A stretch of DNA of 10,093 bases from an uncultured Halioglobus sp. (GTDB lineage Bacteria > Pseudomonadota > Gammaproteobacteria > Pseudomonadales > Halieaceae): NCBI GenBank assembly GCA_905480565.1, contig CAJQQW010000060.1, positions 1-10,093 on the forward strand, given 5' to 3'. Numbering within the stretch: position 1 is the first letter of the stretch; the number at the start of each line of letters is the position of its first letter. The notes under the pieces are model-generated. The model made no database searches. It was not told the DNA's origin and saw only the letters and a list, made by a program, of their open reading frames with translations. Positions 1-10,093 of this stretch are shown one piece after another. The translations under genes were made by a program, and so were the position numbers.

Positions 1-1
1 T

Positions 2-1261
2 GACGATCTCGGCTATGGAGACATCGGTGCCGGCGCAGCGGATAATGCACTGCTCGTAACGCCACACATCGACCGTCTGGCCAGCAACGGTGTGTCCCTC
101 ACTGACTTCCATTCTCCCTCACCCATTTGCACCCCGTCCCGCGCCGCCTATCTCACCGGACGTCTTGCTCCCAGAGCAGGTTTACCCAACGTAGTATTCC
201 CCTCTGGTAGCCTGAAGGGCTTACTGTTTAATACGCTGGCCGCCCCGGAACTCAATATTCGCCTACCCGCAGAAGAAATCACCCTGGCCGATATCCTGAG
301 AGCGTCTGGTTTCGCCACCGCCATGGTGGGCAAATGGCACCTTGGCGACCACAGCCCTTCTTTGCCGAATGACATGGGGTTCGAATTTTTTTACGGCGCG
401 CTATACAGCAACGACATGGAACCTTTCGCCCTCTACCACGATCGCGAGGTCGTGGTGCCCGCGCCGGTAGATCAACGTTTACTCACCGAACTCTACACAA
501 AGGCGGCCAAACGTTTTATTGAAAAAGAAGCAGGCAGTAAACCTTTTTTTCTTTACTTCGCGCACAACTTTCCGCATGACCCGCTGCATGTAAGAGACAC
601 ACGCAGGGGCCAATCTGATGGCGGGCTTTACGGGGATGTATTGTCAGAAATTGACGACAGTGTGGGTGTCATCATTGATACCCTGAAGCGACAGAATGCA
701 CTGGAGAATACCCTCATCATTATGACGTCCGACAACGGCCCCTGGTTTTTGGGGGATGCGGGCAACCAGCGTGGGCGCAAGGGCAACACGTTCGAAGGCG
801 GCATGCGGGTTCCTTTTATCGCTCATTGGCCCGCGGCCATAGAGGGCGGGCGATCAGAGCCCGCCATGGCAATGGGTACAGACCTCGTTCCCACGGTACT
901 GGAGTTGCTGCAGTTGCCCTTCCCCAACGACCGCCAGCTCGATGGCCGCAGTGTCCTTGGCACATTGTTGAACGGCGAACCCACTCCCCACGATTACCTT
1001 TACTACTATGAAGGCGAGACGCTGTTCGCCGTGCGCGACCAGCGCTTCAAGTATCGCGGGGCTGCCGGTGTGTTTTACAGCACTGATCAGATGCCTGTGG
1101 GAGGCTCAATACCGCAAAAAGAATGGCTGTTCGACCTGAGGGGAGACCCCAGGGAGTCCTATGACACTTCAGACCGCCACCCACGCGATCTCGAGCGACT
1201 GCGCAGCGCATTTCTGGCCAAGCAGCAAGACATGCTCGATAACCCGCGCGGCTGGCAGTAA
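2..1261 (+). CDS. Type I (formylglycine-dependent) sulfatase, 5'-truncated by window edge
   Basis: This is a partial gene. The open frame runs from base 2 with no stop, so the GTG at 92 is internal and the true start lies before the window. The 419 visible residues begin at the metal-binding Asp-Asp of the N-terminal DDLGYGD motif. The C-T-P-S-R sulfatase signature is at residues 43-47, where Cys43 would be oxidised to the catalytic formylglycine. The second signature, GKWHLG, is at 110-115, a His-rich FAHNFPHDPLH segment follows near 187, the metal ligands DNG are at 244-246, and the active-site Lys (RGRKG) is at 260. Together these mark an arylsulfatase-A-like S1 sulfatase that hydrolyses sulfate esters. 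Such enzymes are usually exported, but the signal peptide is outside the window. The substrate (aryl or carbohydrate sulfate) cannot be told. A methyltransferase gene follows 76 bases downstream on the same strand. Confidence 0.95.
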   Translation, partial: DDLGYGDIGAGAADNALLVTPHIDRLASNGVSLTDFHSPSPICTPSRAAYLTGRLAPRAGLPNVVFPSGSLKGLLFNTLAAPELNIRLPAEEITLADILRASGFATAMVGKWHLGDHSPSLPNDMGFEFFYGALYSNDMEPFALYHDREVVVPAPVDQRLLTELYTKAAKRFIEKEAGSKPFFLYFAHNFPHDPLHVRDTRRGQSDGGLYGDVLSEIDDSVGVIIDTLKRQNALENTLIIMTSDNGPWFLGDAGNQRGRKGNTFEGGMRVPFIAHWPAAIEGGRSEPAMAMGTDLVPTVLELLQLPFPNDRQLDGRSVLGTLLNGEPTPHDYLYYYEGETLFAVRDQRFKYRGAAGVFYSTDQMPVGGSIPQKEWLFDLRGDPRESYDTSDRHPRDLERLRSAFLAKQQDMLDNPRGWQ

Positions 1262-1285
1262 CTGAGACACAGCGCTTAACTTGCT

Positions 1286-1315
1286 GTGACAGAACGATGT
1301 GGCGGTTGATATAAC
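1286..1315 (+). promoter_or_regulatory. Possible sigma70 promoter for the COMT-like gene
   Basis: GTGACA (1286-1291) matches the -35 consensus at 5 of 6 bases. TATAAC (1310-1315) matches the -10 consensus at 5 of 6. They are 18 bases apart. Transcription would start near 1322, giving a very short leader that begins at the ribosome site. This could give the methyltransferase its own expression, separate from the sulfatase. It is judged by eye only. Confidence 0.35.
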
Positions 1316-1320
1316 ACCAC

Positions 1321-1326
1321 AAGGAG
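1321..1326 (+). promoter_or_regulatory. Ribosome binding site deciding the start of the COMT-like gene
   Basis: AAGGAG lies 11 bases before the ATG at 1338. The in-frame upstream GTG at 1299 has no comparable site, and translation from it would run through this sequence. The ATG at 1338 is therefore preferred. Confidence 0.65.
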
Positions 1327-1337
1327 TGAACCGATCT

Positions 1338-2111
1338 ATGCAATGGTGGCGATTCCTGCATCCCTCAGCACTGGGCTTCACGCTGAAAACATCCTCGCAG
1401 GCTCTTCTAGATAAAGTGAGACAGGCACCACCGCGCACCGTACAGGCAACGCGTTTTGTGGCAGAGCATGCGCGCAGTGGAGACCCACTGAGTGTTCTCC
1501 AAACGCTGGACCGCTTTGCGAGGGAAGAGCGCTGGCTGATGAGCGTGGGGCCCGACAAGGGGCCGCTCATCACAGAACTGGCAGAGCGCGTGCCACCTGG
1601 CGCCAGAGTGCTGGAGTTGGGCAGCTACTGCGGTTATTCCGCTGTGATGATGGCCAGCACACTGGGCCCACAGGCAAATATCATCTCGGTAGATATCGAT
1701 GCAACCGCGATAGAGTGTGCACGCCAAAATGTTGAAATGGCCGGGCTCTCCAGCCAGGTTACGTTTATACAGGGGCCGTCATCACAGATTGTTTCAACGT
1801 TGACAGGGCATTTCGATCTGGTCTTTCTGGATCACTGGAAAGACCTTTACAAAGGAGACCTGCAGACTATTGAAGAACGCGGACTAATCGGCTACGGAAG
1901 CATCGTCGTTGCGGACAATGTGGGCGAAATTTTCGCGCCGAAAAAATTTCTCGACTATGTTCGCAATTGCGGTCTTTACGACTGCGAGCATCGCCGAGCA
2001 ACCATAGAGTATACGCGGGTTCCGGACGCGGTAGAGATTGCTGTTTACCGATCCGATCCGCTCGATAGCCAATCTCAGGCCGCGCCCAAAGATACCTCTC
2101 CAGCAGCATAA
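1338..2111 (+). CDS. COMT-like class I SAM-dependent O-methyltransferase
   Basis: This 257-residue protein transfers a methyl group from S-adenosylmethionine and most resembles catechol O-methyltransferase. The SAM-binding motif ELGSYCGYS (93-101) is nearly the animal COMT motif. The metal and catalytic set is intact: Asp165 and Lys168 in LDHWKD, Asp193-Asn194 in ADN, and Glu224, corresponding to rat COMT Asp141, Lys144, Asp169, Asn170 and Glu199. Trp66, Met68 and Lys74 match COMT Trp38, Met40 and Lys46. A Mg2+-dependent cytosolic enzyme acting on a catechol or similar vicinal diol/phenol is therefore likely, but the native substrate is unknown. About 40 N-terminal residues precede the COMT-like core. 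The start at 1338 follows from its AAGGAG site; a GTG at 1299 would add 13 residues. The end overlaps the convergent SRPBCC gene by 37 bases. Confidence 0.9.
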   Translation: MQWWRFLHPSALGFTLKTSSQALLDKVRQAPPRTVQATRFVAEHARSGDPLSVLQTLDRFAREERWLMSVGPDKGPLITELAERVPPGARVLELGSYCGYSAVMMASTLGPQANIISVDIDATAIECARQNVEMAGLSSQVTFIQGPSSQIVSTLTGHFDLVFLDHWKDLYKGDLQTIEERGLIGYGSIVVADNVGEIFAPKKFLDYVRNCGLYDCEHRRATIEYTRVPDAVEIAVYRSDPLDSQSQAAPKDTSPAA

Positions 2112-2533
2112 GCTTCGGTGTATTTGCGGAATTTTCGGAACATTATTTTATTGGCTAGCCAGATAGCCGGACGAGTGAAAGGCATCAGGCGACGAGAGAG
2201 TCCGTTCACTTCCATCGCCATGTACCACTCCACCCGGCAACTGCCATTACCCAGATCAGTCACGCGGTAGTCTTCGAGGAAACTCCTCGTCGCATCTTTG
2301 CTGGAGCCCAGGAAGGTAAACGCCATACGCTTACCCCGCTCCCACTTGACGAATTCCTCATAGCCAATCATGTCGCCCATCATGTGGACGCTGCGCGTGG
2401 TGCCCACGCCATAGGGCTGGGGAGACGTCCACTCAACTTTTTCAATGGGTAGAGCCCACTCGGTCCAGGCGTTGGCGTCCTCGAACACATCAAAAATCTG
2501 CTCCGGGCTTGCCGCAACGATCTCTATAGCCAC
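2075..2533 (-). CDS. SRPBCC-fold (polyketide cyclase/START-like) protein
   Basis: The N-terminus (residues 1-26) has the usual SRPBCC opening: a beta strand, then A-A-S-P-E-Q-I-F-D-V-F, then an A-W-x-E-W segment. Later come a G-x-G-T turn, alternating strands including VKWERGKRMAF, and a long C-terminal amphipathic helix rich in Arg and Lys. This suits a small hydrophobic-ligand-binding protein such as a lipid or aromatic carrier or cyclase. The family has no diagnostic catalytic residues, so ligand and reaction are unknown. I prefer the GTG at 2533 (152 residues) because GAGGAA lies 7 bases upstream and the protein then begins right at the fold. An ATG at 2611 would add 26 residues unlike the family and lacks a clear ribosome site. 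The gene lies downstream of the DUF3581-like gene after a 297-base gap and is convergent with the methyltransferase, overlapping it by 37 bases. Confidence 0.8.
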   Translation of the reverse strand: MAIEIVAASPEQIFDVFEDANAWTEWALPIEKVEWTSPQPYGVGTTRSVHMMGDMIGYEEFVKWERGKRMAFTFLGSSKDATRSFLEDYRVTDLGNGSCRVEWYMAMEVNGLSRRLMPFTRPAIWLANKIMFRKFRKYTEAYAAGEVSLGAA

Positions 2534-2830
2534 AAATACGTTCCTCGTCTGCTCGAGAAACTCCACACCCACTTTTTGGCACTTGTAATAGTCGCCCAAA
2601 ATTGTCCCCATAAAATTATGAACTCGCTGTAAGGGGTCGCACTGTACACTACCCAGACACCGGTTAACCAGCGCAGCCCAACGTATTTAAAGCTGCAGGC
2701 CGCCGATAGCAATGCGGCACACTGATTTTTTGATTCTGAAAAATACCCTGGCCGATAGATTCGCCGGCAGCGACGACCATATAATAAAACCTGCCGGATA
2801 AATGAGGGGGACTGATCAGTTTTTAGTCTG
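2534..2830. other. Intergenic region between the DUF3581-like and SRPBCC genes
   Basis: I see no convincing gene here. The region holds a 7-base inverted repeat (CCGGCAG at 2764-2770, CTGCCGG at 2791-2797) whose loop contains TATAAT on the plus strand, although no plus-strand gene follows. It also holds the palindromes ACTGATCAGT (2811-2820) and GGTTAACC (2662-2669). A weak minus-strand promoter candidate for the SRPBCC gene is TTGCTA (2707-2712) with TTAAAT (2685-2690), 16 bases apart. No clear terminator with a T tract follows the DUF3581-like gene. Confidence 0.4.
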
Positions 2831-3535
2831 CTAGACGCTTAGCGTACGAACTCGCTCTTCGTAACGATTAATTGCCTCTGCGTTAAGCTGCTTATCGTAG
2901 GGCTTCAAGCCGCTGAGCAGCATGCACTTTTTACCGCGCCCAACAATTTCTCCGTTTGATACCAGGTGAAAAGCCAGATCTACGCTACCCCGTTTGCCAT
3001 TGATCTCCACGCGGTGCCTGTCGCTCTCCAGCAACGCCCCGCTTATATCCAGGGTGTCGAGGTCGATCACCATACTCTGGTACATCACGATAGGACGGTC
3101 CGGGTTAATCATAACCCCCTGATCCGCCAGCAGCGGCACCAGTACGCGAGGAAACGTCTGGCCGGAAAACTCTACGTAACTCTGCGTGATGCTTTTAACA
3201 AGCGCCTCGTCCTGGCGAGATTCCCCCGAAATGTTTATCTGCAAGTATTCTCGACCGCCTTCGTCTAACAACCGCATGCCCGGCGACGGTTCTGGTGGAA
3301 TTAGCTCAACGCCCTCAACCACCATGCCGGAGAATATGAACTCCATGTGCTGACTCACGCCGTAGCGGGCCAGTATCACGGCAAAAAGTAAGTCTCCGGG
3401 TATGCAGAAGCGTTTCGCATCCACGTCGTGGATCGGATTGAAATCATTGGCCATATTCTTGGCGAATTCACTGCCCTGCTCGCGAGTGAAGCTGATTCGG
3501 CCGTTTGTCTTGTCATAGTAATCATCGATAATCAT
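2831..3535 (-). CDS. DUF3581-like, probable hotdog-fold protein
   Basis: This 234-residue protein resembles the DUF3581 family as I remember it, which is a length and motif judgement, not a search result. The marker is DFNPIHD (31-37) followed by KRFCIPGDLLFA (41-52). The N-P-I-H-x-D core resembles the active-site segment of MaoC-type hotdog hydratases and thioesterases, where Asp and His are catalytic, so a hotdog fold acting on an acyl thioester or a similar ligand is reasonable. The function of the family is not known to me. There is no signal peptide or membrane segment, so it is probably cytosolic. The ATG at 3535 is preceded by GAGGT at a longer than usual distance. The gene is 69 bases downstream of the PPTase gene, with its own possible extended -10 promoter in that gap, so it may be only partly co-transcribed with the sulfotransferase operon. 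Confidence 0.75.
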   Translation of the reverse strand: MIIDDYYDKTNGRISFTREQGSEFAKNMANDFNPIHDVDAKRFCIPGDLLFAVILARYGVSQHMEFIFSGMVVEGVELIPPEPSPGMRLLDEGGREYLQINISGESRQDEALVKSITQSYVEFSGQTFPRVLVPLLADQGVMINPDRPIVMYQSMVIDLDTLDISGALLESDRHRVEINGKRGSVDLAFHLVSNGEIVGRGKKCMLLSGLKPYDKQLNAEAINRYEERVRTLSV

Positions 3536-3574
3536 GGCTATTCAGCTTTACCTCGACGTGCATTAACAGGCCGT

Positions 3575-3583
3575 ATTTTAACA
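3575..3583 (-). promoter_or_regulatory. Possible extended -10 promoter for the DUF3581-like gene
   Basis: Read on the minus strand the sequence is TGTTAAAAT, which fits the extended -10 form TGnTATAAT with one mismatch. No good -35 box is visible. Transcription would start near 3568, giving a leader of about 33 bases before the ATG at 3535. Confidence 0.35.
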
Positions 3584-3604
3584 GCATTTCATCGCACGAG
3601 GTGA

Positions 3605-4336
3605 TTACCCCGCAGGTGTGAGACTGGTGGCGCGAAGGGAGACGGTACGCTCTGTGGCTGCACCCTGTGAATCCAGTTCTATAAGCGTTACGCCGGGCGC
3701 GCCTCCGTCACCCATCCAGCACACAGCCATGCGATAGTTCTCCAGCGGGTCCAGTAAAAAATAGGTGGACGGATCCGCGCTATCATCAGTGAAGCAGGCT
3801 ATATGCCCAGGCCCATCCTCGTGCAAACTGAAGTCAAATCCGTAGGCTTTCAAACCAGGAGCAAGCGCCTCACCACGGGCCTTCACGGCGCACTCCTTGA
3901 GGGTCCAGTAATCGAAAAAGCGTTGTTCTCGCAATTGATCGGGACACGTCTCAAGCAGTGCCAACTCTTCCGGACGAAAGTATCGGCGCGCCACCTTTAG
4001 CGACGCTCGACGGGGATCACAATACTCAAGGTCGACCCCCACCGCCACCTCGCGACTGACTGCGCAAACCAACCAGTCACCGCTGTGGCTGAGATTAAAC
4101 TCGATAGACTGTGCACCTCCTCCCAGCGCGGGCTTGCCGTGCTCCCCCTCATCAAAATGCAACTCGGCCGCCGGCGCTCCGACGTAGCTGGAAAGAACCG
4201 CTCGCTTGAAGGCATCGGAGCTTGCAAAGCTGTCGTTACGGGCGAGCCAAAGGTGAACGCAATTGGCCTCCAGAACAATATTTTCGAGACTGTCTATCAC
4301 CCTCAAGTGATCAGAAACGCTGGATAGTTTTGCCAA
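3605..4336 (-). CDS. Sfp-type 4'-phosphopantetheinyl transferase
   Basis: The enzyme moves phosphopantetheine from coenzyme A to a serine of acyl or peptidyl carrier proteins. All family motifs are present, numbered from the longest frame: GKPAL (67-71), FNLSHSGD (80-87) with the conserved His84, GVDLEY (100-105) with Mg2+ ligands Asp102 and Glu104, RYFRPEE (118-124), and WTLKECAVKA (144-153) with Glu148 and Lys152. The length of about 230-243 residues is normal for the Sfp/EntD/HetI class. It lies last in the tightly packed sulfotransferase operon. The start is uncertain: TTG at 4336 overlaps the oxygenase gene by 26 bases and has no well-spaced ribosome site, whereas GTG at 4300 lies 10 bases past the oxygenase stop, keeps the whole domain, and could be reached by coupled re-initiation. 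No carrier protein, polyketide synthase or NRPS gene is in the window, so its target is elsewhere. Confidence 0.92.
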   Translation of the reverse strand: MAKLSSVSDHLRVIDSLENIVLEANCVHLWLARNDSFASSDAFKRAVLSSYVGAPAAELHFDEGEHGKPALGGGAQSIEFNLSHSGDWLVCAVSREVAVGVDLEYCDPRRASLKVARRYFRPEELALLETCPDQLREQRFFDYWTLKECAVKARGEALAPGLKAYGFDFSLHEDGPGHIACFTDDSADPSTYFLLDPLENYRMAVCWMGDGGAPGVTLIELDSQGAATERTVSLRATSLTPAG

Positions 4337-5024
4337 TGATCCGGTCGCGCACCTTCCAGAACAGGCTGTCAGGATTGATCACCACAATAAAGACCTTGCG
4401 CAGCTTATCGTCGGGGCAGGCTATCGGCCGCACCGCATGCCAGGAGTGATCGGTGCGCAGCATAAGAGCACTGGCATTGCCGATAGACTCGAACTCGATG
4501 ATGTCGTCAAAGTCTTCGAGAGCGGGTGCGGTGTTGTAATCCAGCTGACCGCCATCATCAAGGGCCAGGGTCGCGCCGCCCCAAGCCGGATCCCAACTCT
4601 CCTTCGAATTGAAGTAAAATAAATGCGAGCCGTGCTCCCGACGGGCGTCGCAATGCGGCGAAACATCGGCGCCGCTGGGGGTGTAATGCCAATGAAAACG
4701 AAACTCTACCTTACGCGCGCCCAGTAATCGCTGAATCTCTCCCCGATAAGCGTCTGAGCACAGCTCAGCTATAAACTCCTGCCACGGCTCTGGTACGGGC
4801 AGACCGGGCCTGTACTCCAGCGAGTGACGATCGTGCGGCGCCTGTCCCGCTCGACGGCTCTTACCCATAATCGCATCGAACATTTCCAGTGGCGGCATGT
4901 TATCCAACAATGCCTGAAACCCCTCGTGATGCAGCAGCGGCTTGTTCAGGTAAGGATAAGGCGAAACTGACATGAACTCGTCGGTAGGCACTGCCCGCAG
5001 CTGTTCAATGTCGAGATATTTCAT
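4311..5024 (-). CDS. Fe(II)/2-oxoglutarate-dependent oxygenase (prolyl-4-hydroxylase-like)
   Basis: This 237-residue protein has the double-stranded beta-helix signature of 2OG oxygenases. The iron-binding H-x-D is His124-Cys-Asp126, the distal iron ligand is probably His196 in SWHAV, and Arg209 in LRKVF is placed to bind 2-oxoglutarate. The segment WDPAWGGATLAL (144-155) is the usual strand and turn between them in prolyl-4-hydroxylase-like members. It would hydroxylate a substrate using O2 and 2-oxoglutarate, releasing succinate and CO2. The substrate may be a small molecule, lipid, glycan or peptide; the sequence does not decide. The ATG at 5024 overlaps the upstream glycosyltransferase stop as ATGA, which points to translational coupling in the operon. 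There is no signal peptide, so it is cytosolic. Confidence 0.85.
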   Translation of the reverse strand: MKYLDIEQLRAVPTDEFMSVSPYPYLNKPLLHHEGFQALLDNMPPLEMFDAIMGKSRRAGQAPHDRHSLEYRPGLPVPEPWQEFIAELCSDAYRGEIQRLLGARKVEFRFHWHYTPSGADVSPHCDARREHGSHLFYFNSKESWDPAWGGATLALDDGGQLDYNTAPALEDFDDIIEFESIGNASALMLRTDHSWHAVRPIACPDDKLRKVFIVVINPDSLFWKVRDRIIGKTIQRF

Positions 5025-5935
5025 GCTGCCCGGTGTTCCAGTTTGGGTGTTCGCGCCAGTACCTCAAAGGCATCATGGCGCACATGATTCCTGTCGATCT
5101 CATCGCGCACCAGTGTCTCGGTTATATGACCCACCTCCAGGCACTCCTTCAAAAGTCCGAAGAAAAACGACTCCTGCTGCCGGTCCGGGTGCTGTTTGTA
5201 GCGGCCCAACAGCCCATACTGGCCGAAGACCCTCGCCCGCAATCGGTTGGCTGACGCCAACACAGGCTTGTTCTTGAACTTGTCCGCCGGAATGTAATCG
5301 ACAGGCAGACCTGTTTTCCAGGGCTGGGTTTTTCGTTTGGTATTGTGCAGCAGGCGGGTATTGGCATCGAGGTGATCAAAGTCGTTCCAGTAATCTTCGA
5401 GGAAGCCAATATTCTCAGGACTCTCGTGAGCCAGGACCATCCACTCCTTGTAGTCTTGCTCTCGGCGAAACAGTGCATCGAATTCTGCCTCCGCGTCCCA
5501 GTGTCGAAGCTTGGCACACTCCATGAGCATTACGCTGGTCGCCACCTGGTCGACTTTGCCCGCCTTCGCAGAGCGACGCCGACCCATAACAGCAGCACCG
5601 CCCATGTCTCGCTCAAAAAGTTCGAAAATATCCCCGACCGCGAAGATATCCGGATCGGTAAGCACCGCCCTGCCCTGCCAGTTCATCAATTTCGGTGGCA
5701 GAAAACGCAGCGGAGTGAATGACTGCAGATCATCCATATGCCAGACGCGGGTGGTGCCGCCGCGCAGGAAGGTCTGACCCTCCTTTGCTGCAAGATAGGG
5801 GTGATTTTTTGTGTGTATAAACTGCACATCGAACTCATCGGCATGAGCAGAGTTGCGGCGGAACGAATACTCTGCCACCAGTGCGCCCAGCCACTGACGT
5901 TCGTTGGTATGGATAAATACGCAGCGGTCTTTCAC
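5021..5935 (-). CDS. Glycosyltransferase-like protein (GT-A fold, GT8-like)
   Basis: The 304 residues read like a GT-A sugar-nucleotide transferase. An N-terminal strand (VFIHTNERQ) opens the fold. LTDPDIFAVGDIFELF (92-107) carries Asp94-Pro-Asp96, the likely metal- and nucleotide-binding DxD motif, followed by the V-G-D-I-F-E-L-F helix typical of GT8-like enzymes. A distal LHNT...TQPWKTG segment, near residues 218-232, resembles the H...KPW element of GT8 C-termini. Donor and acceptor are unknown, and the exact family assignment is tentative. The GTG at 5935 is chosen because it overlaps the sulfotransferase stop as GTGA and has GGAGG 4 bases upstream (5940-5944). An ATG at 5986 would overlap that gene by 55 bases and add 17 residues that look out of place. 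It is the middle gene of the sulfotransferase-glycosyltransferase-oxygenase run. Confidence 0.7.
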   Translation of the reverse strand: MKDRCVFIHTNERQWLGALVAEYSFRRNSAHADEFDVQFIHTKNHPYLAAKEGQTFLRGGTTRVWHMDDLQSFTPLRFLPPKLMNWQGRAVLTDPDIFAVGDIFELFERDMGGAAVMGRRRSAKAGKVDQVATSVMLMECAKLRHWDAEAEFDALFRREQDYKEWMVLAHESPENIGFLEDYWNDFDHLDANTRLLHNTKRKTQPWKTGLPVDYIPADKFKNKPVLASANRLRARVFGQYGLLGRYKQHPDRQQESFFFGLLKECLEVGHITETLVRDEIDRNHVRHDAFEVLARTPKLEHRAA

Positions 5936-6858
5936 CCCGCCTCCGAGGCTTCTGCACTGGTGTAGCCAAATGCTGGCAACATGCACGAATCTACCATGGC
6001 AACCAGCTCAGCCACTTGATTGTCATCAAAATAATCCCGATACCCCCCTACCTTGGCCTTCCGCACTTTATAGGTATTGGGGTCATTAACATCCTTCGCC
6101 TGAACACGGCTGCCGCTGCGCCAGAAGTAGTTCTCCTGCTCTTTTTTGCGCAGGTTCTCCACCGAGGCAAACTCTGCCGTATCTGCGAGGTACTCAGGAA
6201 TCGCCTCGAGATTGAGGAATTCCACGATACGCTCCATTTCCTGTTCCGGGTTGGCGCGCAAATCTTCGTAGCGCACCACAAGCAGCTCCTTGATATGGGG
6301 CAACTCCCGGGCCCAGTTGTTCATAAACTCTATAATATGATTCAGCCCCTGCCCCTCATGTTTTACGAAGTCATACACTGATATCTCGGCATCGTGAGGC
6401 GGGTAATTGTTCATGGCTTTCTTTTCAGGCCGCATACGAAACTTCCACTGGTGAAATTGGGAAACCGCCACGTCAATCGGGTTGCGCACCAGCAATACCG
6501 TCTTTTTGTCGTAGAAATCCTTCTTGGAATCAACATTACCGGTGTACCTGCGCAGGTAATTGTCATGGGTGAAGAAGATCTTCGGGATGCTACTGTTGAG
6601 CCGCGTGTAGTTGTCAAATCCCATCAGAATATTATCGGGCAGCTTGTAGACTAACTGGTAATAGCGGGAAATCATCACCCGCACCCAGGTACGGCCGCTT
6701 TTACCATAGGACGCGAAAACGTACTGGCAGCGGTTATACTTCCAGAATTCCTCCTTACCACGACGCCAGCGTTGCAGATCGTGTGCCTTTTCCTCCGGTA
6801 AAAATACCGAAATCGCGCGTACCAACCACTTGATCAGTCGCTTGATAATCATGTGCAT
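5932..6858 (-). CDS. PAPS-dependent sulfotransferase
   Basis: This 308-residue enzyme transfers a sulfuryl group from 3'-phosphoadenosine 5'-phosphosulfate (PAPS). The 5'-phosphosulfate loop is SYGKSGRTW (50-58) and the 3'-phosphate motif is LLVRNPIDVAVSQFHQW (122-138), with Arg125 and Ser133 in the usual places. His98 in FFTHDN is the candidate catalytic base, and a Gly-rich KVGGYRDYF segment near the C-terminus matches the second PAPS-binding region. This is the Sulfotransfer_1 type, soluble or peripheral. The N-terminus (MHMIIKRLIKWLVRAISVFL) is basic and amphipathic and may touch membrane, which would suit a lipid or glycan acceptor. The ATG at 6858 has AAGGGA 8 bases upstream; a TTG at 6924 would add 22 residues and lacks support. 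It is first in the operon, behind a hairpin-bearing leader. Confidence 0.93.
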   Translation of the reverse strand: MHMIIKRLIKWLVRAISVFLPEEKAHDLQRWRRGKEEFWKYNRCQYVFASYGKSGRTWVRVMISRYYQLVYKLPDNILMGFDNYTRLNSSIPKIFFTHDNYLRRYTGNVDSKKDFYDKKTVLLVRNPIDVAVSQFHQWKFRMRPEKKAMNNYPPHDAEISVYDFVKHEGQGLNHIIEFMNNWARELPHIKELLVVRYEDLRANPEQEMERIVEFLNLEAIPEYLADTAEFASVENLRKKEQENYFWRSGSRVQAKDVNDPNTYKVRKAKVGGYRDYFDDNQVAELVAMVDSCMLPAFGYTSAEASEAG

Positions 6859-6866
6859 GAGTATTT

Positions 6867-6889
6867 TCCCTTGATCAGGGCAGATCAAG
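6867..6889 (-). promoter_or_regulatory. Leader hairpin overlapping the sulfotransferase ribosome site
   Basis: A perfect 7-base inverted repeat (CTTGATC at 6870-6876, GATCAAG at 6883-6889) is separated by 6 bases. On the transcript of the minus-strand operon its 3' arm shares three bases (6870-6872) with the ribosome site AAGGGA (6867-6872). The stem could mask the start of the site, or the repeat could be a protein-binding operator. There is no T tract, so it is not a terminator. Confidence 0.45.
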
Positions 6890-6894
6890 CGGCG

Positions 6895-6924
6895 AAGGTT
6901 ATCGGATGATTGGGTTATTCTCAA
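6895..6924 (-). promoter_or_regulatory. Possible sigma70 promoter of the sulfotransferase operon
   Basis: On the minus strand TTGAGA (6919-6924) matches the -35 consensus at 5 of 6 bases and is followed after 17 bases by the weaker TAACCT (6896-6901). Transcription would start just before the leader hairpin. A second, slightly upstream candidate on the same strand pairs TTGAGG with TAAAAA about 16 bases downstream. Both are judged by eye only. Confidence 0.35.
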
Positions 6925-7088
6925 GATTCCGTGGTATTTTTAACGCCTTTCCACCTTTCCTCAACTGTATGATTTTCTTGGGATTTGGAGATGCGCGCCA
7001 GCAAGGTAATCAGCTGGGAGCGCGAGGCACAAACACAGCGGTGCGGGTCTTGACTACAATGCCCCCCCTGTCTAGACGGTGCAGGTAG
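6925..7088. other. Divergent intergenic region between two operons
   Basis: This stretch separates the minus-strand sulfotransferase operon from the plus-strand lipid operon and must hold plus-strand control signals. A TTGACT box at 7050-7055 is visible, but only a poor -10 (TAGACG, 7073-7078) lies 17 bases later; TACAAT at 7055-7060 is an alternative -10 without a good -35. A run of seven C, the palindrome GTCTAGAC (7071-7078) and a weak CCAGC/GCTGG inverted repeat (6998-7002, 7013-7017) are also present. I see no gene here. Confidence 0.4.
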
Positions 7089-7931
7089 ATGAACACGTTA
7101 AATCGACTAATCGTTATTATCACCACTCTCGCCTCACTGCAGGCCGTGTCGAGCATGGCTGCCAGCGGGGACACCGTCGCGCTGCCCTCCTGGCAAGTGC
7201 TGGAATTTGAGGAAAAAGCGTTCTGGGCCACGGCCCATTCCCGCATAGAATTGCTTCCCGACGAGGAGAACCCTGGATTCTGGCTGCTGGATATCACCAG
7301 TTCCGTAGTGGGTAACTCGGAGACAGTCGCCGTCGTTTTTGAACCCGAAACGGGCCAGGTGCTCTCTCGGTCACGGCTGAGCAAGGGCAAGGGACACCGC
7401 ATGAAACGCTACGACTACCAGGAAAACGCGGTGGTGCGTGAGCGTCGCAATGGCAGCGATTACCCGGAGATGGCCCCAGCGGACTGGCCCGTCTCCTCTC
7501 GTAAAAACGTGGCATTACCCGCTGCTGCAAAGGATAACGTTATCACCAGCCCCTACCCATTGCTGGTCCTCGCCCAACGATTACTGACCAGCGACAAAAA
7601 CAAAGCCATAGAAGTACTGGTGCACACGGATCTCAATATCTACCGAGCACGTCTCAGCAGCGGCAACGGTATACCGCTGGATGTCGACTATTTGCAGGGT
7701 GAGGAACGCGTGCAAGGCAGGCGCGAGACACGAGCCGTTGCCATCCAGGTCAACCCGGAAGGCGCGCTCAACGACGATGAAGATTTCAACCTGCTGGGCC
7801 TCGAGAGCAATATCCTGCTGTTTTTTGACCGGGCTTCGCTACTACCCCTTCAGGTAACGGGTAAAGCCCCAAGAATCGGCGATACCAGCATCAAGCTCAA
7901 ATCAGTTATCCTGCGGCAACCGCCCACGTGA
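7089..7931 (+). CDS. Secreted/periplasmic protein of unknown function
   Basis: This 280-residue protein is not recognised with confidence. Residues 1-24 form a classical Sec signal peptide: basic start with Arg6, hydrophobic core I8-V20, and a Ser-Met-Ala cleavage site after Ala24. No lipobox cysteine is present, so it is not a lipoprotein. The mature part is rich in beta strands with repeated phrases such as VVFEPETGQVLSRSRL, MKRYDY and, at the end, LPLQVTGKAPRIGDTSIKLKS. This broadly recalls periplasmic DUF3108- or LolA/LolB-like lipid-binding barrels, but the resemblance is weak. The ATG at 7089 follows a modest AGG 3 bases before it. Its stop overlaps the lipid kinase start as GTGA, so it belongs to that operon and may handle an envelope lipid. 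That role is inference. Confidence 0.8.
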   Translation: MNTLNRLIVIITTLASLQAVSSMAASGDTVALPSWQVLEFEEKAFWATAHSRIELLPDEENPGFWLLDITSSVVGNSETVAVVFEPETGQVLSRSRLSKGKGHRMKRYDYQENAVVRERRNGSDYPEMAPADWPVSSRKNVALPAAAKDNVITSPYPLLVLAQRLLTSDKNKAIEVLVHTDLNIYRARLSSGNGIPLDVDYLQGEERVQGRRETRAVAIQVNPEGALNDDEDFNLLGLESNILLFFDRASLLPLQVTGKAPRIGDTSIKLKSVILRQPPT

Positions 7932-8890
7932 GGTCAGTGCCCGGCACGGTGGGCCTGATCAGCAACCCATCCAGCGGCCACAACCGCGGTCAGTTTGAAC
8001 ATATTTGTGAGCGCCTCGCACAACACCCGTTGATCCATCACCGCATTACCCGAAGCCCCGCCGACATCCTGCATGTACTTGAGGAATTTGCCGCGCTTGA
8101 TTTAGAGGTACTGGCCATCAACGGAGGAGACGGCACTGTATCGGCGATATTGGGCGAGCTACTTGAAAAACGGCCATTGCCAGCACTGCCCAAAATCGTA
8201 CTGCTACCCGGGGGTACCGCCAATATGAACGCGGGGGATATCGGTGTGAGAGGCTCTCTGCGCAAGGCCGTCGATCGTTTTTGCCAGTGGTCTAATACGC
8301 AGTGTGACGGCGACGATATTACAAGGCGCGCCCTGATGAGAGTCGTGATAGAGGATTCTGCTGCGCCCCGCTACGGCATGCATCTTGGCGGCGGTGCGGT
8401 CATTCACGGCACAGAATACGCTCACCGGGAGATCCACTCTCGCGGCTTGCGCGACGATTTCAGCGTCGCAATAGGTACACTGCGAACGGTGTGGGGCGTA
8501 TTGCGAGACGATCCGGCTTTTAACCGGCATATCACCACCACGCTGACGCTGGACGACGGTGTCCCGACAACACACGACTCGCTCATACTGACCCTGAGCA
8601 CCCTGCACCGTCTCGCATTCGGTATGCAACCCTTCTGGAGCGACGAACCGGGTTCCATCAGGCTAACCCTCATGGAACAGGGCTGTACGCGCTTTGCACG
8701 CACTTTCCTTTCGATTATTCGCGGACGGCCCAATAGCAATGCAGTACCCGCATCGGGATACCACAGCCACAACGCCGACAGGATTAAACTGCAGATGTCT
8801 GGCAACCTCAACCTCGATGGTGAACTGCTGGACGTGGATGGCCAGGTTGCTATTACAGCCAGCCCCGAGCTGGAGTTCCTTCGCCTGTGA
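7928..8890 (+). CDS. Diacylglycerol kinase family (YegS/LCB5-like) lipid kinase
   Basis: This 320-residue protein has the DAGK catalytic domain. The opening strand and loop is LISNPSSGHN (10-19), the nucleotide-binding motif is INGGDGTV (64-71), and PGGTANMNAGDIG (94-106) is the third family signature. The C-terminal beta domain ends with a LNLDGELLDVDG segment, matching the conserved DGE region of this fold. Such enzymes use ATP to phosphorylate diacylglycerol or a related lipid, giving phosphatidic acid, at the cytosolic membrane face. The length is close to bacterial YegS and DgkB proteins. There is no transmembrane segment. The GTG at 7928 overlaps the previous stop as GTGA and has no separate ribosome site, so translation is probably coupled. 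The next gene, likewise GTGA-coupled, resembles a CDP-diacylglycerol synthase, which supports phosphatidic acid as the product. A sphingoid-type substrate is not excluded. Confidence 0.9.
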   Translation: MRSVPGTVGLISNPSSGHNRGQFEHICERLAQHPLIHHRITRSPADILHVLEEFAALDLEVLAINGGDGTVSAILGELLEKRPLPALPKIVLLPGGTANMNAGDIGVRGSLRKAVDRFCQWSNTQCDGDDITRRALMRVVIEDSAAPRYGMHLGGGAVIHGTEYAHREIHSRGLRDDFSVAIGTLRTVWGVLRDDPAFNRHITTTLTLDDGVPTTHDSLILTLSTLHRLAFGMQPFWSDEPGSIRLTLMEQGCTRFARTFLSIIRGRPNSNAVPASGYHSHNADRIKLQMSGNLNLDGELLDVDGQVAITASPELEFLRL

Positions 8891-9840
8891 ATGCTTATCC
8901 GGCGGTTTCCGGACCGGACCCTGACCGAGATCCCAATCTATCCGCACTGCTGTCGCAACTGCAAACGCGGCTGAACGATGCAGTATGCTGCACCTTGGTC
9001 TATGGCTCCTGCCTGCGCAGTGGCGATATCTATGACGGGCTGCTGGACCTGTACCTTGTCTGCGACGACTACCGTTCGGCCTACAGCAGCATTCGGCTCG
9101 CTGCCGCCAACTGGCTGCTGCCACCCAACGTTTTTTATGCCGAACAAAAATCCACAGGGGCCGCTGGCAGCGATCTGACACTGCGCAGCAAAGTTACGGT
9201 CATTTCCCTGCGAGACTTCGAGCGCGGCTGCTCTCCCGCCCGCTTCGAATCTTATATCTGGGGCCGATTCGCGCAACCCACTCACATACTGCACGCCCGC
9301 GATGAGCAGACACGAGCAAGAGTAGAGGCGGCTCTCACCCAGGCGGCTCTCACGCTATTGGTTAATGCACTGCCCGCTCTGCCACCGCAAGGCCGCCTCG
9401 AAGATCTGTGGGTCCACGCTCTGGGAATGAGTTACAACACCGAATTGCGCACCGAGCGCAGCGGCCGGGCGCGTGAACTGGTTCTCGACGCAGCCGATTT
9501 CTATGCAGCAATGACTCGCCATCACGCACCGCAATTGGGGCCGTCTTTTGCACTACAGGGACAGGGCTCACAATTAACCTATCGCAGCAGTACCAGTCCC
9601 ACTGCGCGACGCTGGATCGCATTGGCCTGGGCAGTGCGCCGCGCTCAGGGCAAACTCCTGTCCGTCATGCGATTGGTAAAGGGGCTGTTCACCTTCGATG
9701 GGGGCCTGGACTATATTGCCTGGAAACTTGAGCGGCATTCCGGAGAAAAAATTATTATTCCAGACAAGGTAAGGCGCACCCCACTGCTGCACATGTGGGG
9801 GTTTTTCTGGGGGCTGTACCGCCGCGGCATCTTTAAGTGA
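8887..9840 (+). CDS. Tam41-like nucleotidyltransferase, putative CDP-diacylglycerol synthase
   Basis: The 317 residues read in the same order as Tam41/Mmp37, the mitochondrial phosphatidate cytidylyltransferase. VYGSCLRSG (38-46) carries the Gly-Ser nucleotidyltransferase motif; LLDLYLV (52-58) supplies Asp54, like the I-D-F-x-F of Tam41; NVFYAEQ (81-87) stands for its VYFNP; LRSKVTVISL (99-108) for its KYGV(V/I)SL; and YIWGRFAQP (123-131) for its YIAGRLxKP. A run of leucines, then LGMSYNTELR, matches the later LSYxGDxRM. Tam41 makes CDP-diacylglycerol from CTP and phosphatidic acid, and the preceding lipid kinase would supply phosphatidic acid. The pattern Asp-x-Tyr, not Asp-x-Asp, argues against an ordinary MNT-type transferase. 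The GTG at 8887 overlaps the kinase stop as GTGA. The C-terminus (HMWGFFWGLYRRGIF) is aromatic and basic and may bind membrane. The family match is read by eye. Confidence 0.7.
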   Translation: MNAYPAVSGPDPDRDPNLSALLSQLQTRLNDAVCCTLVYGSCLRSGDIYDGLLDLYLVCDDYRSAYSSIRLAAANWLLPPNVFYAEQKSTGAAGSDLTLRSKVTVISLRDFERGCSPARFESYIWGRFAQPTHILHARDEQTRARVEAALTQAALTLLVNALPALPPQGRLEDLWVHALGMSYNTELRTERSGRARELVLDAADFYAAMTRHHAPQLGPSFALQGQGSQLTYRSSTSPTARRWIALAWAVRRAQGKLLSVMRLVKGLFTFDGGLDYIAWKLERHSGEKIIIPDKVRRTPLLHMWGFFWGLYRRGIFK

Positions 9841-10012
9841 AGGGCGCGTCGAAGGAGGCCTCAAATTCGCAACAGAGTGTATTTATGTAACTGTTTTTAA
9901 TCGGTTTTATTAAATATCTGCGGATACTCCAGAGGCCTCGTATGGTCGTCGTAGCAGGTACTATTCACGCCCTGAGCATCCCTCAGAAAATAGAAAAAAA
10001 GGCCGTATTCCT
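9841..10012. other. Intergenic region between convergent genes
   Basis: No gene is apparent. The region is AT-rich between 9865 and 9925. The 8-base palindrome GAGGCCTC occurs twice (9855-9862 and 9932-9939), and CTGAG/CTCAG (9972-9976, 9982-9986) makes a small hairpin with a 5-base loop. A weak terminator for the plus-strand operon may be AACAG (9871-9875) with CTGTT (9891-9895) followed by further T residues and a T-rich stretch. Confidence 0.4.
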
Positions 10013-10014
10013 TT
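9990..10014 (-). terminator. Possible weak terminator of the edge gene
   Basis: On the minus strand AAAGG (10010-10014) can pair with CCTTT (9998-10002) across a 7-base loop, and the transcript continues with further T residues. The stem is only five pairs and overlaps the stop codon, so confidence is low. Confidence 0.3.
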
Positions 10015-10093
10015 ATAGTTCTGGCTTCAGAAACTGATCCTCCGGCAGCCCCACGATTTCATGAAAGCCTGCGTTTTTATCCAGACCAATCAC
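10013..10093 (-). CDS. C-terminal end of an unidentified protein (partial at window edge)
   Basis: An open minus-strand frame enters from the right edge and runs 26 codons to a TAA at 10013-10015. The visible residues include VIGLDKNAGFHEIVGLPED and end FLKPEL. The composition and the clean end before an AT-rich non-coding stretch look like a real C-terminus, but it is too short to assign to a family. The rest lies beyond the window. Confidence 0.5.
   Translation of the reverse strand: MIGLDKNAGFHEIVGLPEDQFLKPEL

Follow-up and report, generated by a model that had tools for sequence, protein, structure and literature searches.

The window analysed here is a stretch of 10,093 nucleotides (contig CAJQQW010000060.1 of assembly GCA_905480565.1, positions 1 to 10,093, forward strand) from an uncultured Halioglobus sp. 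of the family Halieaceae, represented by a metagenome-assembled genome (MAG) of 3.1 Mb that is 74% complete. A trio of overlapping genes, all on one contig, encodes a lipid kinase of the diacylglycerol (DAG) kinase family and a relative of the phosphatidate cytidylyltransferase Tam41:

7089 to 7931, plus strand: first gene of the trio, an open reading frame (ORF) with nothing above cut-off in Pfam
7928 to 8890, plus strand: DAGK-family lipid kinase, proposed to be of the CpgB (bacterial ceramide kinase) type
8887 to 9840, plus strand: Tam41-like nucleotidyltransferase of 317 amino acids, homolog of Caulobacter CpgC and, from homology, family profile and motifs, a proposed cytidine triphosphate (CTP):ceramide-1-phosphate cytidylyltransferase

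The three ORFs are joined by 4-bp overlaps (GTGA), such that the GTG start of the kinase shares bases with the upstream stop codon and its own stop codon shares bases with the next start. A chance ORF at 8887-9840 was ruled out by the 1906 homologs of its product at E ≤ 0.001. The original prediction, made from the sequence of this window, had described a DAGK-family kinase overlapping a Tam41-like gene, and this description is borne out by the 4-bp overlap, the PF00781 match and a family-level PF09139 signal. We propose that the pair is probably a CpgB-CpgC module for the synthesis of bacterial phosphosphingolipids, in which the Tam41-like protein would make cytidine diphosphate (CDP)-ceramide.

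Relationship of the 8887-9840 protein to Tam41

Searched as a single sequence, the 8887-9840 protein scores only 14.8 bits against PF09139 (Tam41_Mmp37), whose cut-off is 24, is assigned to no family in NCBIfam and retrieves only chance antibody matches from the PDB. Its relation to Tam41 holds nonetheless because the signal is carried by the family alignment and profile: PF09139 is matched at E ≤ 0.01 by 32 of 41 aligned family members, and a Geobacter relative reaches 32.7 bits, above the cut-off. The PF09139 check suggested in the original prediction therefore fails for the single protein and succeeds for the family, and no better match to an unrelated nucleotidyltransferase family was found, PF09139 being the only Pfam family matched among the 41 members. 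The family profile identifies 6ig2 and 6ig4 in the PDB (mitochondrial phosphatidate cytidylyltransferase, presumably from S. pombe), with an E-value of 4.2e-4 for 6ig2 and 0.36 for the first match after these two, and alignment of the window family with fragments of 6ig2 and 7ecd using hhalign gives a probability of 94% (E 1.3e-7). At the level of sequence, the protein is thus related to Tam41. Scanning 14 control genomes with PF09139 produced only a sub-cut-off match in Methanocaldococcus; Caulobacter had no match, which would fit with drift of the CpgC sequence.

Residues invariant in all 36 aligned homologs include Y39, G40 and S41 (the GS motif being residues 40-41), D54, K102 (the lysine of LRSKVTVISL), W125, R127 and F128 (within YIWGRF), E186, R188, E190, R262 and K280. 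The motif list of the original prediction accordingly stands for GS, Asp54, the lysine of LRSKVTVISL and the W, R and F of YIWGRF, but for FYAEQ only Y84 is listed as conserved, at 97%. The invariance of GS, Asp54, Lys102 and Arg127 extends to the Caulobacterales members and is the pattern that would be expected of a nucleotidyltransferase. Of the three acidic residues that belong to the fold, Tam41 keeps a single one (PMC11646218), with which the single conserved aspartate after the GS motif in the window family appears to agree. Shared with mitochondrial Tam41/TAMM41 (PF09139; 6ig2, 6ig4) is a central region in which a lysine, GRF-x-x-P and Y-x-x-E/D-x-R are aligned. The GS motif occurs in matching order, but the profile score around it is negative. 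The window protein further differs from the mitochondrial enzyme in falling below the PF09139 cut-off and in reading SYIWGRFAQP where Tam41 has MYLAGRFQKP, and its family sits among sphingolipid genes. The Tam41 core is also common to 7ecd, a phosphatidate cytidylyltransferase which the 6ig2 fragment retrieves at E 8.5e-21 but which is absent from the window-family profile matches at E ≤ 10. We take 7ecd to be the bacterial Tam41 enzyme studied in Kimura 2022. That study is reported to have described CDP-diacylglycerol (CDP-DAG) synthase activity for a bacterial Tam41 (cited in PMC11646218), so that finding a protein of the Tam41 type in bacteria is in itself not new.

The gene pair and its relationship to Caulobacter CpgB-CpgC

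Caulobacter crescentus CpgC (CC_1161) is encoded beside CpgB (CC_1160) in the ceramide gene region (PMC11324152). CpgB is a demonstrated ceramide kinase producing ceramide-1-phosphate (PMC10331486), and CpgC takes part in the conversion of ceramide-1-phosphate to ceramide phosphoglycerate by a mechanism that is called unidentified in PMC13228409. An InterPro CDP-DAG-synthase-like domain has been noted in CC_1161, and a nucleoside diphosphate-activated ceramide (NDP-ceramide) was proposed in 2024 (PMC11324152). This idea precedes our analysis, so the CpgC-type kind of protein is already known, if biochemically unsolved.

Aligned with hhalign, the window family matches the Caulobacter CpgC family over its full length (E 9.2e-82 across 293 columns). 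A C. vibrioides protein (P0172), listed by a search with the protein of locus L067, aligns with the window protein across 278 residues at 32% identity and from gene order is presumably CC_1161. Among 80 evenly drawn Caulobacterales genomes the Tam41-like gene was found in 16; the kinase adjoins it in all ten of the regions read, and in 12 of the 16 the serine palmitoyltransferase gene is its neighbour on the contig. We take CC_1162 to be the corresponding gene (spt) of C. crescentus. Caulobacter and window-type clusters have in common the adjacent DAGK-type kinase and CpgC homolog as well as genes for serine palmitoyltransferase, a GNAT protein, a phosphoesterase, a nucleoside triphosphate (NTP) transferase and LptF/G. 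They differ in the modest identity of the CpgC homologs (only 32%), in the position of serine palmitoyltransferase, which in the 19 Halieaceae genomes with both genes on one contig is 9.6 to 42.8 kb away rather than adjacent, in the CpgA-like gene, which was not found in four long Halieaceae regions, and in the sulfotransferase and ELM1-type genes that the Halieaceae clusters add. On the full-length profile match and these shared neighbours, the window pair is homologous to Caulobacter CpgB-CpgC.

The 7928-8890 protein scores 52.9 bits against PF00781 (DAGK_cat; cut-off 23.6), and its catalytic domain carries GGDGT, the DAGK-type GGDG signature. Both features are common to bacterial YegS/DAGK-type lipid kinases, but the window kinase falls far under the NCBIfam cut-offs for YegS, YegS/Rv2252/BmrU and diacylglycerol kinase. 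In a kinase tree, six ordinary DAGK-type paralogs group apart from the cluster kinases (support 90/97) and two long-branch paralogs (L145 and L147) are placed beside the cluster kinases with 29% bootstrap; the deep forks are weak and there is no single clean clade. A scan of named genomes produced 44 loci, comprising 31 of Halieaceae type, ten of Desulfobacterota/Geobacter type, two from other gammaproteobacteria and one from Euryhalocaulis, where the Halieaceae-type label was given by similarity and several loci are titled only Gammaproteobacteria. Litorirhabdus and Mangrovimicrobium were assumed to belong to the Halieaceae type. The kinase neighbour, for which the original prediction had suggested a survey, is conserved: a same-family kinase is present in 42 of the 44 loci, and the two exceptions, L022 and L032, have their contig start at or inside the Tam41-like gene. 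It is near rather than adjacent in L041, where it lies on the opposite strand, and in L044, where it is about 1.2 kb off. Kinase and Tam41-like distances correlate across 36 loci (r = 0.945), although common ancestry alone could yield such tracking.

Co-occurrence with serine palmitoyltransferase and proposed function

Serine palmitoyltransferase was called at its curated cut-off of 500 bits in three draws totalling 278 genomes, namely 100 Halieaceae, 80 Caulobacterales and 98 of the class of genome G002. The draw centres (G000, G001 and G002) were picked as gene holders, and counts are per genome with kinship ignored; in genus g25, for example, one genome has both genes and two have neither. 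The Tam41-like gene was found in 39 Halieaceae, all within the 41 that have serine palmitoyltransferase, and in 16 Caulobacterales, all within 22, a count that may miss diverged copies as the search alignment (A2) holds a single Caulobacterales row. Four genomes of the G002 class have each gene, three of them in common; the fourth gene holder (G260) has a 498-bit palmitoyltransferase match truncated by the beginning of a contig, together with a further fragment. Serine palmitoyltransferase therefore accompanies the Tam41-like gene in 59 of 59 drawn gene-holding genomes, 58 over the cut-off and one split. Both genes lie on one contig in 19 of the 39 Halieaceae gene holders, the rest having them on separate contigs of split assemblies, and in the MAG of the window itself serine palmitoyltransferase (591.8 bits) is on another contig. 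It was also above the cut-off in L067, L072 and a Litorirhabdus-like region. Of 19 chosen gene-holding genomes examined separately, some of which are also in the draws, 16 pass the cut-off, and in G005 a gene fragment truncated by a contig end scores 468.5 bits; the other two are considered below.

A palmitoyltransferase gene with no Tam41-like gene detected was observed in two Halieaceae (G113 and G196), six Caulobacterales and one genome of the G002 class (G282), which could reflect an incomplete assembly, a diverged copy that escaped the search or sphingolipid synthesis that does without a CpgC step. Two palmitoyltransferase genes over the cut-off, in G034 (C1:488584-489747) and G064 (C8:124275-125444), have one in-frame stop each, indicative of decay or sequencing error.

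The original prediction had the pair convert DAG to phosphatidic acid and then to CDP-DAG, as a salvage or dedicated phospholipid branch beside CdsA. A CdsA-family gene does stand alongside in the host MAG, as supposed. The conversion itself is probably wrong, given the co-occurrence with serine palmitoyltransferase, the ceramide clusters and the end-to-end homology to CpgC, and so, on gene context and co-occurrence, is the branch; a plain CDP-DAG salvage pair was rejected on the same two grounds. More generally, we regard as quite unlikely a DAG kinase and CDP-DAG synthase that form a second CDP-DAG route, as the genome already has its CdsA-family gene, in each of the three draws the Tam41-like gene goes together with serine palmitoyltransferase, the long Halieaceae regions have the nature of ceramide clusters and deletion of cpgB in Caulobacter leaves phosphatidic acid unchanged (PMC10331486). 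Such a route would nonetheless accord with the Tam41 homology of the family, its DAGK-family partner and the CDP-DAG synthesis reported for bacterial Tam41 (cited in PMC11646218). It would accord, too, with the acceptance of DAG by CpgB in vitro (PMC10331486), a promiscuity that could also point to a pair of broader specificity serving ceramide and DAG pools. This last idea we judge very unlikely, set against the co-occurrence with serine palmitoyltransferase and the separation of the six ordinary DAGK-type paralogs from the cluster kinases.

For the favoured CpgB-CpgC module, homology, invariant residues, gene order and co-occurrence are observed, and from them we infer residue roles, substrate, product and step order. 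The kinase would phosphorylate ceramide to ceramide-1-phosphate. The Tam41-like protein would hold CTP by its GS motif, Asp54, Lys102 and Arg127, take ceramide-1-phosphate out of the membrane and move cytidine monophosphate (CMP) onto its phosphate, yielding CDP-ceramide and pyrophosphate, which is the simplest chemistry given the Tam41 homology. A separate transferase would then use CDP-ceramide to attach the head group, and the LptF/LptG-type and ATP-binding cassette (ABC) proteins of the cluster may export the product. We see an even balance of chances for the wider proposal that CpgC-type proteins are Tam41-fold CTP:ceramide-1-phosphate cytidylyltransferases and that the sulfotransferase and ELM1-type genes of the Halieaceae provide a head group that is sulfated or glycosylated. 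The term CDP-ceramide had no occurrence in the literature searched, other spellings having been searched less widely, and a literature search on Halioglobus and sphingolipid returned nothing relevant.

Several observations weigh against assignment of the pair to this pathway. The identity of P0172 as CC_1161 is drawn from gene order, and CpgB phosphorylates DAG in vitro about equally to ceramide (PMC10331486). Genomes G004 (locus L034) and G088 (L035) have only paralog-level palmitoyltransferase scores (best 208.8 and 309.3 bits, respectively), which would suit a CDP-DAG route; as they hold both the Tam41-like gene and the kinase, they may be incomplete assemblies or put the pair to another use. 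A CpgA-like CDP-alcohol phosphotransferase, a candidate user of CDP-ceramide, was not found in any of the four long Halieaceae regions (29-40 kb). Finally, the Caulobacter CpgC profile alone has no detectable Tam41 homology and finds no Tam41 chain in the PDB, and the Pfam match is absent from all six Caulobacter-family CpgC proteins. As the Caulobacter profile alone is without Tam41 similarity, the link between CpgC and Tam41 runs via the Halieaceae and Desulfobacterota relatives. This drift past detectable similarity, together with published schemes in which CpgC acts between ceramide-1-phosphate and ceramide phosphoglycerate (PMC12275187, PMC11324152), would suit a protein that has the Tam41 fold and is not a lipid cytidylyltransferase, but attaches phosphoglycerate directly to ceramide-1-phosphate or uses another nucleotide. 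We think this unlikely, as GS, Asp54, Lys102 and Arg127 are invariant in Caulobacterales as elsewhere and direct glycerate attachment was judged energetically not very favorable by the 2024 authors (PMC11324152).

The CpgC step of ceramide phosphoglycerate synthesis is still called unidentified in passages of a 2025 paper (PMC12275187) and a 2026 preprint (PMC13228409). By forming a sequence bridge between CpgC and Tam41, the window family reduces this open step to one direct assay, with CTP and ceramide-1-phosphate, and it extends the module of kinase and CpgC to Halieaceae, Desulfobacterota and Geobacter-type genomes. Already in print are the wide spread of CpgB alone (PMC10331486), CC_1161 orthologs in two other gammaproteobacteria (PMC11324152) and Spt-like genes in Desulfobacterota. 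If the wider proposal on CpgC-type proteins is true, bacterial phosphosphingolipids would be built by the activated-lipid logic of CDP-DAG phospholipids with a Tam41 relative replacing CdsA, and Halieaceae would have a head group, sulfated or glycosylated, that is not known from this family. Tam41-type matches should not automatically be taken as CDP-DAG synthases.

Neighbouring genes and the Halieaceae cluster

Gene content was tabulated for long regions (29-40 kb) of four of five Halieaceae genomes, L129 being left out. All four contain serine palmitoyltransferase, the GNAT gene, the NTP transferase, the phosphoesterase, LptF/G and the kinase, and these regions are ceramide clusters. The region of G103, for which counts include self-matches, also encodes an acyl carrier protein and a fatty acyl-AMP ligase. 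The GNAT gene, of which one relative has a weak sub-cut-off GNAT match and others match no family at the thresholds used, is presumed to encode the ceramide synthase from its position and by comparison with CC_1154. The 13 loci not of Halieaceae type, which vary in length and are in some cases cut, encode a CDP-alcohol phosphotransferase (7), a calcineurin-like phosphoesterase (10), LptF/G (7) and a MobA-type NTP transferase (3), a gene set that agrees with the Caulobacter ceramide phosphoglycerate genes; the literature bore this match out.

Upstream of the trio, the window encodes the following proteins identified with Pfam:

3605 to 4336, minus strand: 4'-phosphopantetheinyl transferase (PF01648)
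4311 to 5024, minus strand: protein with a sub-cut-off match to 2OG-Fe(II) oxygenase
5021 to 5986, minus strand: protein with a weak glycosyltransferase-8 match only
5932 to 6924, minus strand: sulfotransferase (PF00685), possibly a head-group enzyme

Of the 32 Halieaceae-type rows of the gene-content comparison, 26 have the sulfotransferase and 30 have the first gene of the trio, and neither was found in any of 25 other rows (22 genomes). These counts include self-matches to the queries (the window and L035, L039, L040, L043, L069, L070, L071, L072, L074, L076, L125 and L126), and the genomes of L076-L078 are already represented by L046, L039 and L038. This distribution may suggest a family-specific head-group or transport step involving the two genes, and with the sulfotransferase the lipid head group could be sulfated. 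By eye, the N-terminus of the 7089-7931 protein resembles a signal peptide. An acyl carrier protein is encoded beside serine palmitoyltransferase in the Litorirhabdus-like region, and a carrier of this type could be charged by the phosphopantetheinyl transferase of the window. Between the sulfotransferase and phosphopantetheinyl transferase genes sit the 4311-5024 and 5021-5986 genes. Within the Halieaceae sphingolipid cluster, locus L125 has PF06258 ('mitochondrial fission ELM1') domains encoded by two genes (10279-11334 and 16518-17648, both on the minus strand).

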